Positions 36,355 through 62,865 of a stretch of 64,000 bases of DNA are shown here, piece after piece. Below the pieces are notes generated by a model that saw only the letters and a list, made by a program, of their open reading frames with translations, had not been told where the DNA came from and ran no database searches. How positions within the stretch are numbered: position 1 is the first letter of the stretch; every line of letters starts with the position of its first letter. Source of the stretch: Notamacropus eugenii (taxonomy: Eukaryota; Chordata; Mammalia; Diprotodontia; Macropodidae); contig NC_092879.1 in assembly GCF_028372415.1 (NCBI RefSeq), positions 94,894,241 to 94,958,240 on the forward strand, in the 5' to 3' direction. The position numbers and the translations under genes are program-made.

Positions 36355-36436
36355 TCTAAGGTCCCTCCCAGCTCTAGGGTTCTGTGATTCTGCAGCCCTT
36401 TGAACACAGGTTTGCAGAGTTGACTGGGCCCTCAGA
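36355..36436 (+). ncRNA. Pre-miRNA-like hairpin, array copy 1
   Basis: An 82-nt imperfect hairpin. Arms: CUAAGG with CCUCAG (one mismatch), CCC with GGG, CAGCUCU with AGAGUUG, and an inner CUGUG with CACAG, leaving an 18-nt loop. About 24 pairs by hand. It arises where a sense CR1 tail meets an inverted CR1-tail-like sequence. A small-RNA role is inference. Confidence 0.4.
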
Positions 36437-36555
36437 ACACACATCATCATTCCCCACATACTTGGGAAAGTACATAGGTCTGTTATATACGGTTGATGGC
36501 ACAATAGCTCCAATCTATGTTATGAAGAGGGCTCTTTTGCAAGAACTAGAGAGCC

Positions 36556-36635
36556 TCTAATGTCCTTATTGGCTCTGAGTTCTTGTAACTCTATGACTTT
36601 GAGCACACGTTCTCGGAGTTGAAAAGGTCCCTAGA
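36556..36635 (+). ncRNA. Pre-miRNA-like hairpin, array copy 2
   Basis: 80 nt. UGGCUCUG (36570-36577) pairs fully with CGGAGUUG (36614-36621), using G-U pairs. The outer helix UCUA pairs with UAGA, and CCUU with AAGG. The inner stem is weaker than in copy 1. Confidence 0.35.
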
Positions 36636-36990
36636 ACACATAACATTATCTGGTAATGTGCAGCTGGAAAGAAGAAAGATCAGTCTAGAATTCATAGTAG
36701 AGGTAAGTTGAGAACTTATAAAATGTTGTAGAGGGGTTATTGTGCTATCTCTTTTCTCCTTTTAGTGACTAAACTCTTTAAGAAAGTTATTTCTAATCGA
36801 TCCTTCTATTTTCTCTCTTCTAAATTCTCTGCAATATAGCTTCTGGTCTCATCTGTCAATTGAAATTTCTGTCCCTAAAGTTACTAGTTTACAAAACTAA
36901 TGGCTTTTTTTTTCAGTATTATCCTTCTTGATCTCTAATTTTGGGTGTTTCTCCAAGGCTCTGCCCTGGGCCCTCTTTTATCTCTATACT

Positions 36991-37024
36991 GTGTGTGTGT
37001 GTGTGTGTGTGTGTGTGTGTGTGT
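36991..37024. repeat. (GT)n microsatellite within the array
   Basis: About 17 GT dinucleotides. Confidence 0.95.
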
Positions 37025-38190
37025 TTTGTACTATATCTCATCAACTCCATTTTTTTGATGTATGAAAAAATTTCCTATCAGAGTTATGCCTAAGTATAAT
37101 GAACTTTGAGTTCCGATTCCTATATGTTGGAGATCTATCAGACTGCTTGTGGGTTACAATGTAGAAGGGATCCTGTTTCAGGTACTTGTTATACTGAAGA
37201 GTATCTGGGGTTCCTGCTTTCTCTGAGGTTCTATAATTCTGCTTAGCCCCAGAAGGAAGAAGTGAGGTTAGTGAATGGAAGTCAAAGAAATACGCATTTT
37301 AGCTGGTTAAGAGGAAATTTTCCTAAGAACTAAAGTGATCTGAAAGACTATATCAGAAGTCAGTGAATTCATTCTTACTGAAGACATTCAGTCAAGGGCT
37401 GGATGAGCACTTGTGATATATCTCATGAAGGTGAATTTTTTAAAATTATAGTTTGAACTGCATTACTTCTGAGGTCTCTGGAAGGTTCATGATGGTAGAA
37501 TTCTGTGATTATGTTGCCCAAGAGCCAAGGGGGCCTTTAGAACAATGCCTCTTCCGTTAACTAAACTTAGGAAGAAATGAACCCAGGGTTAAAGCTCATG
37601 GTGGGACCACGGAAGGGAGGGTGTCCCAGCAGAAGCACAATGACTACTGAAGTGGGATGTTATGGAGGGGAATCTTTTTCGTGTATGAGTTAGATTAGAT
37701 GGCAAACTAAGGTAAATTTCAAGTCTGAGGTATTGCCATACTTTCTTATTCTAGACATCAGAACCAGGAGAAATGGATGGGAAATTTATACTTCATGTTA
37801 TGAAAAACTTTCTAACAAACAGAGCTACCTAATAGCTGGATGGACTGTCCCAAAGGCATTAGGTTGCCCCTCAATAAGGATCTTTACCTAAAACTTCATA
37901 GCTGTTTGTGGTACATTCTCTTTCTTTTATTTTCTCTCAGTCCAGGTTGGACTAGGTGGCATCTGACGATCCTGGTATTATTCCACTTATACTTATTCCG
38001 GAAATGAACAGGTTCTTAGAAGACTCACCATTGTTTTATAGTAAGTACATTTCAGAAGGTGTGAAACCAGGGTTACTGTGGGATCTGGTGTTGGAAGAGG
38101 GGGCAGGTTTCTTGGCAAAGGCAGGATGAACAGTCACGGAATATGCCATTGTGGGGGTGGGAGTGGGCTTCTTTCACAGCTACTGTGGCC

Positions 38191-38271
38191 TCTGATGGCC
38201 CCATCAGTTCTGGGTGCCTATTTTCTTTATTACTTTGATTATAGGTTCACAGAATTGAGAGGGCCATTAGA
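38191..38271 (+). ncRNA. Best pre-miRNA-like hairpin of the array
   Basis: 81 nt with about 27 pairs. UCUGAUGGCCC (38191-38201) pairs without interruption with GGGCCAUUAGA (38261-38271). CAGUUCUG (38205-38212) pairs with CAGAAUUG (38250-38257). GCCUAU (38216-38221) pairs with AUAGGU (38241-38246). The loop is 19 nt. Compared with the array consensus CAGCUCUG/CAGAGUUG, the fourth pair has changed from C-G to U-A on both sides. Size, loop and pairing are within the range of mammalian microRNA precursors. No mature species is known to me. Confidence 0.45.
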
Positions 38272-38719
38272 ATATGCAACTTCTTCTTGTAGCAAGTACA
38301 TATGGGGAAACTTTGAGACTAGGGTAGGCCTGAAGCTAAGGTTTGGAGGAGAGATAGATTTCCTAGCAGAGGCTGGTAGATCACATATGATGTATGGTGT
38401 AAAGAGGATTGATTCTCTTTTAGATACAGGGTGGTCACTGCTCTCTGAGAAAGTGTGATTTAATGAATTGTTGAACACCACCTTCTTGAGGTGAACAGGC
38501 CCTTAGTGTACGTATCATCATCATGATACATTTGACTATTCAACTTAGACAAAAATGTATTTTGGAAGGAGCAGTCCTTGGGGTGGGTCTTCCTTGCCCT
38601 GTGATGGGTGAGGAGATGCTAATGGGGAATAGGAGACCTGTCTTACATTGGGCATAGGGGATGGGCAGTGCTGTGTGTGAGGAACAGTGAGAAATTCTGT
38701 TTGGTTGGACTATAGAGTG

Positions 38720-60657: not shown

Positions 60658-60735
60658 CTAATGTCCCTCCTAGCTCTGAGATGTTGTCACTCTGTGACTC
60701 ATAAAACTGTTTCCCAGAGCTAAGTGGGCCGTTAG
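60658..60735 (+). ncRNA. Pre-miRNA-like hairpin with paired substitution
   Basis: 78 nt with about 24 pairs. UAGCUCUG (60671-60678) pairs perfectly with CAGAGCUA (60715-60722). Relative to CAGCUCUG/CAGAGCUG the terminal pair has changed from C-G to U-A on both arms. The outer CUAAUG pairs with CGUUAG (one U-G pair), and CCC with GGG. Confidence 0.42.
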
Positions 60736-61166
60736 GAAATAGCCATCACTTGGTAGCCAATACACTTGGAAATGCTGAAGTTCTGGAATAGATAGCAGTA
60801 ATAGGGTATTATTATTAATGGAACATGGGAGAACTGTTGTGAGACATATTATCAAGGTATTATTGTTCGTATATGGGATGGAACCCATAGCAGAATGAGA
60901 GACATTCCCATTGTGAAATTCTATGGTTTTTCTTGCCTCTTAGGCAATTTACAAAAGCACTGACTACAAAATTATGATAATTCAATTCAGGTATCTCTTC
61001 TAAAAAGCCTTTGAATCCAATAACATTCTTGAAAAATAGAATTGGCTGCCTTGGAAGGCTGGGGCTTTTCCCCATTTGAGTATGTTCAAATATGAATAAG
61101 ATTACATGTTGGCTATTTACTTAAAAAAAGTTATATATCATGTGTTCAGTCATCTTTTTTATCTTC

Positions 61167-61244
61167 TAAGGTCTCTCCCAGCTCTGAGATGCCTTGGTTC
61201 TGTGATTCTCTGAACAGCGTGTTCCAGAGTTGAACGGGCCTTTA
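61167..61244 (+). ncRNA. Pre-miRNA-like hairpin, C/A type
   Basis: 78 nt with about 25 pairs. CAGCUCUG (61179-61186) pairs with CAGAGUUG (61225-61232). The inner GAUGC pairs with GUGUU and UUG with CAG through G-U pairs. The outer UAAGG pairs with CCUUUA-type sequence. Preserved as well as any copy in the array. Confidence 0.42.
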
Positions 61245-61969
61245 AAGCCCACATCATCATCTTTCTCATCAAATATATGAGGGTACAAGTGAGACTTGGA
61301 TGGATATAGATGTCACTTTTGATTGTGGCACTCAGTGACTCATACGGTAAGTAAAATAAGTACTCCTGCAGGAGCTACTTTTGCATTTATTTGATAGCTA
61401 CTAAAGTGCCACCTCTAAGATGTTTACATCCTATGACTCATTGGATATGGTCTTCCAGAGCTGAGTGGACCCTTAGAAAACATGATACCATCTTTTAAAC
61501 TCATAATTTTGAAAAGTGGAATGAGCTACCTAGGGAGCAGGTGTGTATTCCTCATTGGATATATTCCCTTAAGGGCTAAAACCAACGTATTGGTTATGGT
61601 ATTAAAGAAATTTTTTTCATATAATTAGTTATCTTTTTAGCTATTGAGGTCCTCACCAGGTTAGAGATGCTTTGATTCTGCAACTCTTTGAACAGTGTCT
61701 CAGAACACAAAAGGCCCTTAGAACCCATATCACCATCATCTTCCATGAGGTATATAACAAGTGAGACTGAAAGGTGTGGGTTACCTGCCTACTGGTGAAG
61801 CATGGTGGTTTGTGCCATAAATAGAGCAAGATGAGTATTTCTGTGGCAAATACTTTTGTATATATAGAGAACCAGTTGATATATCTCCCAAATCTAAGAT
61901 GTTTTTAATTTTTGATATGTTGTAGACTGCACCCAAAAGCTGAAGGAGACCTTAGAAAATATTTCCTCA

Positions 61970-62365
61970 TGATACTATAAGCAAAATAGGAAAACAAGGA
62001 ATAGTTTACTTGTCATATTTATAGAGAACAGAAGAATTTATGACCCAAGAAGATAGAGAATATTATGAAATGCAAAATGGATAATTTTGATTACAATAAA
62101 TGGAAAAGTTTTTGTACAAACAAAGCCAATGCAACCAAGATTAGGAGGGAAGCAGAAAACTGGGAAAGAATTTTTATAACCAGTGTCTGATAAAGGCCTC
62201 ATTTCTAAAATATATAGGGAACTAAGTCAAATTTGTAAGAATACAAGTCATTCCCCAACTGATAAATGGTCAAAGGATATGAACAGGCAGTCTTCAGAGG
62301 AAGTAGTTAAAAATATCTATAGTCATATGAAAAATACTCTAAATCACTATTGATGAGAGAAATGC
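61970..62365 (+). mobile_element. L1 ORF2 fragment, sense, inserted in the array
   Basis: It parallels the intact ORF2 at about 4620-5030 (AAACAAGGAATAGTTTACTT, GCAAAATGGATAATTTTGAT, AATGGTCAAAGGATATGAAC, GATGAGAGAAATGCAAGTC). The flanks AGAAAATATT (near 61953 and 62363) look like a 10-bp target-site duplication made from the array motif. Confidence 0.88.
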
Positions 62366-62782
62366 AAGTCAGAAAATATTCTACCATCTGGTAACCAATA
62401 TACTTGGATTTGCTCAAGATCTATATTAGGTGGCAATTTGGGCATCCTTTTAAGTGGAACGTAGGCAAACAGTTGCAAAGCATATCATCATAGTGATGAA
62501 TGTTTATAAGTGGGTTGGACCTTATAGCAGGATATACACATTGCATTGTTATATTCTATGGTTTTTCTTGTCTCTAAGGTAGTTTAATACTCAGTGGGTG
62601 CAAAACTGAGAGAATCTCATTTACACTTCTCTTTAAAAACTGTCGAACCTCATGAACCTAAGCAAAAATAGAATTGACTGCCTCAGGATGCAGGTGTTTG
62701 TTCACTAAAGTGCTACAAGACAATGTATAGGTCATTTTCTTGAAGAAAACTTGTATTTCATGTTTTTATTCATCTTTTTAGC

Positions 62783-62865
62783 TGCTGAGGTCCTCTCTCA
62801 ACCCTGAGATATCTTGATTATCTTGCTATCTGATCAATATGTCTTAGAGCTGAATGGGCCCTTAG
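62783..62865 (+). ncRNA. Pre-miRNA-like hairpin with strongest inner stem
   Basis: The inner stem pairs 62807-62820 with 62831-62844: AGAUAU with AUGUCU, then, after one mismatch, UUGAU with AUCAA, plus further closing pairs. That is 13 of 14 positions including U-G. Compared with sister copies (GAUGC/GUGUC) a C-G pair became U-A and a G-U pair became A-U. The outer helix (6 of 8 plus GAGG with CCUU) is weaker. Confidence 0.42.

Follow-up and report, generated by a model that had tools for sequence, protein, structure and literature searches.

Introduction

Large lineage-specific clusters of microRNA (miRNA) genes are few (C2MC, C19MC, C14MC and the X-linked MIR-506 family), and how such clusters start, expand and die is an open problem. 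Here we analyse a window of 64,000 nucleotides of Notamacropus eugenii DNA (NC_092879.1:94894241-94958240, within a genome of 3.445 Gb) that holds one end of a long tandem array of ~80-nt hairpins. From the features of the DNA itself we suggest, with a probability of about 0.7, that the window is the mostly decayed edge of a candidate X-linked miRNA gene cluster shaped by birth and death of copies.

The mouse Sfmbt2 cluster (C2MC), for which 193 MSHORT1 units and 65 miRNA genes are described (PMC3212979), is by our comparison the closest precedent. According to that description, (i) a retroelement-containing unit with a self-complementary segment (MSHORT1/MLONG1, miR-466/467) was tandemly amplified and (ii) short units became part of a longer unit, which was amplified again in the centre, with other units on both flanks (PMC3212979); the array resembles C2MC in both respects. 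The two differ in that C2MC is described as intronic in an autosomal imprinted gene, with a hairpin derived from (AC)n/(GT)n beside a B1 element, whereas the array is very probably X-linked, lies near AGTR2 and has a palindrome that resembles opposed CR1/L3 tails. The eutherian MIR-506 family, described as fast-evolving clustered miRNAs located on the X between SLITRK2 and FMR1 and derived from MER91C (PMC11031087), is similar in being X-linked, clustered and derived from a transposable element (TE). However, that element is a different one, and the array is located beside AGTR2 and ~27 Mb from FMR1/FXR-family exons, a distance that excludes nearness to FMR1 alone, SLITRK2 not having been searched for. 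Primate C19MC is, as reported, likewise a large lineage-restricted miRNA cluster (PMC6346411); it differs in being imprinted, in its location on human chromosome 19 and in its unit.

Among marsupials, half of 14 opossum-specific miRNAs are stated to derive from marsupial-specific TEs, six of these being long interspersed nuclear elements (LINEs) (PMC3742188, a review citing Devor 2009). NOVEL-16 of the Tasmanian devil and thylacine (MirGeneDB 2.1) is presented as a family of marsupial miRNAs in several copies that differ slightly (PMC10552650), and by this description the array is like it in its multi-copy character. In the literature searched we recognised no publication that describes the array locus, and make no claim that it is unpublished.

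Results

Architecture of the array

We examined 304 kb consisting of the window, 50 kb upstream and 190 kb downstream; positions in kb are window coordinates and values above 64 kb fall downstream of the window. Matches to a 79-nt hairpin profile, seeded from six copies and iterated over the window, and to a monomer model delimit a tandem array from ~35.7 to ~176.9 kb (141,000 bases; 94.93-95.07 Mb of the contig). The array has three parts: (i) an old 5' part at 35.7-65 kb, most of which is inside the window, (ii) a core at 70.9-157 kb, and (iii) a 3' part at 158-177 kb that consists chiefly of old copies but has core-type monomers at its start. The core contains 98 copies of the main hairpin in monomers of ~870 bp. 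Its higher-order repeat measures 10.5 kb, it matches itself over 24.8 kb at 96%, and its representatives have a mean pairwise identity of 74.5% (48 near-full sequences among 58 representatives less than 90% alike). The 10.5-kb repeats are nearly identical over 86058-121360, where several monomers score identically, reflecting either very recent amplification, probably with variable copy number, or an assembly effect.

Most hairpin copies are imperfect palindromes that the profile matches on both strands, with the plus orientation nearly always scoring higher; the plus strand accounts for 127 of 130 profile matches across the array, and a single one of 191 monomer-model segments is inverted (63872-64202, at the window end). 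Core monomers have three segments that look hairpin-derived, A, B and C, while the units in the window often have two hairpins, A and B, spaced ~200-250 bp. In layout, with units in one orientation, a young amplified centre and old flanks, the array thus resembles a TE-derived tandem miRNA cluster.

Intactness and constraint of the core hairpins

Hairpins were counted as intact if they formed a single stem of at least 26 pairs at -28 kcal/mol or lower, in a census of A copies 80-105 nt long that pooled identical sequences. Intact copies make up 72 of 98 in the core, which by this pair and energy criterion have the canonical miRNA form of an ~80-nt imperfect single hairpin with ~30 pairs; they make up 81 of 136 overall and 3 of 22 in the window. 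Among 3,000 94-mers sampled at random across these 304 kb, 39 are intact. We think that the low count in the window results in part from cut borders that add flank to good copies such as that at 38193.

The alternative that bears most directly on these numbers is a non-functional tandem array, in which a foldback repeat spread by unequal exchange and gene conversion and the intactness of the core is a mark of youth. We consider this alternative rather unlikely, and four observations argue against it. First, in the same core monomers hairpin A is kept (mean minimum free energy (MFE) -30.2 over 60 distinct copies, mostly intact) and B and C are lost (-17.7 and -13.7, not intact). Second, conservation in 84-column windows along the monomer (874 columns) is highest at columns 321-404, which cover most of hairpin A and its 3' flank, and the exact hairpin window, 303-386, is in the top 3.4% of such windows. 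Hairpin plus flank exceeds the spacers in identity whether duplicates from higher-order repeats are kept (0.811 vs 0.715, p 3e-7) or removed (0.801 vs 0.717, p 1e-6), and even when CpG-type columns are removed (0.810 vs 0.736, p 2.6e-4), all p-values taking columns as independent. Third, the window hairpin at 38193 is highly diverged and yet has a better stem than the edge consensus. Fourth, the core-type hairpins have homology to a catalogued miRNA family, as detailed below.

We compared 59 distinct core copies with simulated sequences carrying an equal number of random substitutions; 20 of them outperform 95% of the simulations in folding and 8 outperform 99%, and the mean MFE of core copies is -30.2 vs -24.9 in the simulated sequences. 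Among the edge copies, 13 of 73 reach p<=0.05 in a set that includes a copy at 32078 that is probably not a member. We aligned 79 out of 98 distinct A copies; in this alignment 80.9% of cells are paired, vs 77.9% in shuffles, a difference that relatedness can explain.

Several results weigh against the miRNA cluster and, in part, for a non-functional array. Beating the random-substitution simulations is partly a restatement of there being fewer changes in stem columns, and for 12 of the 73 edge copies more than 90% of the simulations fold better. The arms are not conserved above the loop (identity among paralogues 0.76 for 5p, 0.79 for 3p, 0.805 for the loop and 0.80-0.83 for basal stem and flank), and the best 22-column stretch (0.867) lies in segment C, in which the hairpin has decayed. 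One-sided stem changes show no G-U excess (70 G-U vs 65 A-C), and 19 of 46 double stem changes are still paired, approximately the chance level by our own count of combinations. RNAalifold predicts no common pair for the 79 aligned copies; their covariation score of 0.173 is above all 500 shuffles (0.134), an excess that relatedness alone can yield. In raw folding energy the array has no enrichment, with 1.1% (36-66 kb) and 1.5% (66-158 kb) of plus-strand 100-nt segments below -35 kcal/mol, compared with 1.8% and 2.0% in areas upstream (2.0% at 0-36 kb) and 0.75% downstream; on the minus strand of the window, single-stem hairpins with a folding z-score (comparison with dinucleotide shuffles) of z<=-3 are not denser in the array part (6 vs 13 in the rest). 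Most copies in the window are weak, with z>=-2 in 41 of 52. The gathering score is not reached by any Rfam model, either in the window or across the downstream loci scanned (L001-L013), most core copies have no match to the family mentioned above at the thresholds used, and the top match is in a core-type monomer just beyond the core rather than within it. The recent homogenisation of the core, seen in its long self-match, also fits a non-functional array. Finally, the rat counterpart of the Sfmbt2 cluster is described as having many RSHORT1 copies yet a single miRNA gene (PMC3212979), and given this precedent, expression is needed before the array can be called a miRNA cluster.

In total, the constraint on the hairpins is real but mild. 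It fits a minority of useful copies with most copies decaying, as in the miRNA cluster we favour, or merely a young core.

The peak of constraint over 84 columns at one hairpin also bears on a second alternative. An X-linked, long tandem array that lies nearly on one strand could represent tandem-repeat exons or introns of a long noncoding RNA in which the repeats themselves act, similarly to the X-linked RNAs Rsx or Xist. The repeat units of Rsx are short. The ~870-bp monomers are long and constraint is centred on a single hairpin, making this explanation extremely improbable.

Similarity to mir-7360

The family matched is mir-7360 (RF03476), the number range of which we take to be that of opossum. 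Over ten 10-kb loci at 64-164 kb (L001-L010) there are 22 matches, all on the plus strand, of which at least 13 fall inside listed A copies; eight were found in scans of L002, L006 and L009 (E<=10; six below 0.1) and 14 in scans of L001, L003, L004, L005, L007, L008 and L010 (E<=2), with none in L001. The top match, L010:6300-6357 (160.3 kb), scores 43.2 bits (E 4.4e-5 in 70 kb, 2.8e-6 in 4.5 kb), and the best match within the core scores 35.1 bits (E 0.0027 in 30 kb). The alignment covers the full 59-position model end to end, with the stem and both arms, but 43.2 bits is below the gathering score of 47 and the array hairpins are clearly diverged. Judged from these alignments, the core-type hairpins are homologous to mir-7360 but are not members by the Rfam cut-off. 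A genome-wide search with RF03476 gave no match among 80 scored of 1,129,223 first-look candidates, a result that carries no weight.

A Drosha product is expected to begin ~14 nt above the stem base, and rules for this distance and for CNNC motifs are part of what is known about the processing of primary miRNA transcripts (pri-miRNAs). The start of the mir-7360 match is 14 nt up the stem from its base, and the core consensus has CNNC at ~+15 to +18 in its 3' flank. Since the copies share one ancestor, these features count once. With inferred arm borders, the core copies have 24 different predicted 5p seeds and 19 different predicted 3p seeds, the commonest 3p seed occurring in 49 copies.

Alternatively, the array could be a germ-line source of hairpin RNA for endogenous small interfering RNAs, or a cluster for Piwi-interacting RNAs (piRNAs), instead of canonical miRNAs. 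It is long, contains inverted repeats almost exclusively on a single strand and has L1 insertions near it, and testis piRNAs of the tammar wallaby are reported to be retroelement-rich (PMC3576234). Against this, the hairpins are short (~80 nt, ~30 pairs, with a loop and internal loops as in a pri-miRNA) and not long perfect duplexes, and the family that they match is a miRNA family. We regard this source as very unlikely and return to the candidate miRNA cluster.

Other matches in the window are weak: mir-7385 (RF03198) at 39352 (20.8 bits, E 0.48 in 4.3 kb) is at chance level, and mir-3524 matches at 36352 (25.6 bits, E 0.024), 38188 (23.9 bits, E 0.074) and 39344 (18.4 bits, E 3.2) against a gathering score of 99. 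Matches to SNORD105 and other weak RNA matches, as well as those to mir-184 (minus strand) and to lncRNA fragments, were dismissed as chance or low complexity, and matches to mir-297, mir-466 and mir-1277 were dismissed as lying on simple repeats. A 149-bp (TA)n run is located inside the array at 44648-44796, and the mir-297 and mir-3149 matches there are of low complexity.

Hairpins in the window

A sequence-only reading of this DNA had proposed a miRNA-like hairpin cluster with a hairpin in every array monomer and had listed eight good copies. All eight were recovered within 3 nt (36357, 36558, 38193, 39340, 39561, 60659, 61167 and 62786), with z-scores of -1.3, -3.2, -7.5, -3.9, -4.0, -3.6, -1.9 and -4.2, respectively; six of the eight are below -3, and the other two do not fold as well. 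Extending the comparison to all 52 plus-strand copies of at least 20 bits in the window gives a mean z of -1.07 and z<-2 in 11 copies, vs 4 of 91 spacer segments. The notion of a hairpin in every monomer is refuted by these counts, and the proposed check of folding energy against shuffles divides the copies into 11 that are better than shuffles, and so have the miRNA form, and 41 that are not. The consensus 3' arm given in that reading, CAGAGTTGAATGGGCCCTTAG, has zero exact copies genome-wide. The cluster itself is supported, more by DNA beyond the window, through the mir-7360 matches and the intact core copies, than by the window.

On the plus strand, single-stem hairpins with z<=-3 number 13 in the 28.4 kb of the window that belong to the array and 8 in the remaining 35.6 kb, an approximately twofold higher density in the array part. 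The flank copies are mostly weak, and a minority have good stems: 38193, 39338, 39561, 48838 and 62786 (Table 1). None of 5,000 simulations was as stable as the hairpin at 38193, and the segment 38150-38320 matches only itself in the genome in a search that skips very common words.

Table 1. Coordinates of the array flank and of individual hairpins in the window. Simulation p-values are from 5,000 simulations each and cover six copies that were chosen for looking best (36357, 38193, 39338, 39561, 48838 and 62786).
Feature	Position	Strand	MFE	z	Simulation p	Remarks
Old, degenerate 5' flank of the hairpin array	35681..64000	+				Profile and monomer-model matches; array goes on to ~176,900
A-type hairpin	36357..36435	+	-30.3	-1.3 over 91 nt; -3.5 for 86 nt from 36367	0.062	
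Second hairpin of the 36.3-kb pair	36558..36634	+		-3.2		
Strongest array hairpin in the window	38193..38270	+	-43.4	-7.5 and -9.5 (two runs)	2e-4	28 pairs
Weaker hairpin	38428..38506	+		-1.0		
Intact A-type hairpin	39338..39417	+	-34.7	-3.9	0.007	
Intact hairpin	39561..39637	+	-36.4	-4.0	0.003	
Example A+B unit with weak hairpins	46343..47091	+		A 46349, -1.1; B 46561, -1.9		Spacer to next A at 47097
Intact hairpin	48838..48915	+	-34.3	-3.8	0.008	B position judged by spacing
A-type hairpin	53648..53726	+	-29.2	-3.7		
B-type hairpin	60659..60735	+	-29.6	-3.6		
A-type hairpin	61167..61244	+	-28.3	-1.9		Not significant
Intact A-type hairpin	62786..62865	+	-32.9	-4.2	0.019	

Origin of the palindrome and genomic neighbourhood

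Each hairpin arm is an inverted copy of the other, and it is plausible that the palindrome came from two opposed CR1/L3 tails. The CR1-tail origin had already been proposed from the window; the inverted arms agree with it, and three window hairpins resemble mir-3524, whose model stem we take to be CR1-tail-like, so that the support is indirect. Tail-like matches outside the array account for 13 of 90 BLAST rows, the best with E 1e-4 and the rest weak. The genome has 22 occurrences of the core 19-mer CAAACAGTGTATCTCAGAT, every one within the array; together with the segment at 38150-38320 that has no other match, this indicates that the hairpin is not evidently a dispersed repeat today.

An uninterrupted AGTR2 frame, which spans 404 codons between stops, is located at 248173-249384 on the minus strand, 71 kb beyond the downstream end of the array, with similarity to AT2 at E 7e-155 and to AT1 at E 1e-71. 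FMR1/FXR-family exons are present on three contigs, including at 67.70 Mb on that of the array, and we infer that the exons at 67.70 Mb are FMR1 itself. In humans, AGTR2 and FMR1 both map to Xq. Given that AGTR2 and FMR1-like exons are both on the contig, the contig is very probably the X chromosome. The sequence-only reading had not noticed X linkage, how far the array extends, that its core is young or that most window copies have decayed.

An apparently young L1-like element with open frames of 390 and 1298 codons lies at -41..5548 of the window. Between the old 5' part and the core, a CpG-rich stretch is followed by L1 ORF1 frames (65001-67570), and this L1 5' end could supply a promoter. 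As promoters of the cluster we rejected the CpG-rich sequences at 65.0-66.7 kb and around -1 kb, which adjoin L1 ORF1 frames and are more simply explained as L1 5' ends. A near-perfect palindrome at 32150-32215, with TTAGGG-like repeats in its loop and z about -11 to -15, is perhaps a DNA-transposon foldback or a telomere-repeat insertion.

Discussion

Combining the layout of the array with the intactness and constraint of hairpin A and the similarity to mir-7360, we suggest a scenario for the candidate miRNA cluster: (i) two opposed CR1/L3 tails may have formed the ~80-nt imperfect palindrome, (ii) the unit bearing it was tandemly amplified, nearly always in one orientation, giving a young core with older copies on both sides, (iii) Drosha would cut a long plus-strand primary transcript ~14 nt up from the base of the stem and Dicer would cut the product, yielding miRNAs of ~22 nt that share a common 3p seed but have several 5p seeds, and (iv) tandem duplication would keep adding copies, of which selection would retain few and the others would decay.

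A bolder proposal, which we hold to be unlikely and put forward tentatively from the predicted seeds and the X linkage, is that of a marsupial X-linked miRNA megacluster with ~100 core hairpins near AGTR2, amplified in the 10.5-kb higher-order repeat, in which 5p seeds would diversify and the 3p seed would be kept. Marsupials silence the paternal X, and the cluster would therefore be expressed in females from the maternal copy only. If this is true, the locus would be an independent counterpart of the imprinted clusters C2MC, C19MC and C14MC, possibly in the germ line or placenta.

The locus shows several stages of such a history together, with many copies that have decayed, a few that are preserved and a core that was homogenised recently. 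Its precise position on the X near AGTR2 makes the orthologous interval directly comparable across species. If the hairpins are processed, the array would probably be among the largest mammalian miRNA clusters by number of hairpins.

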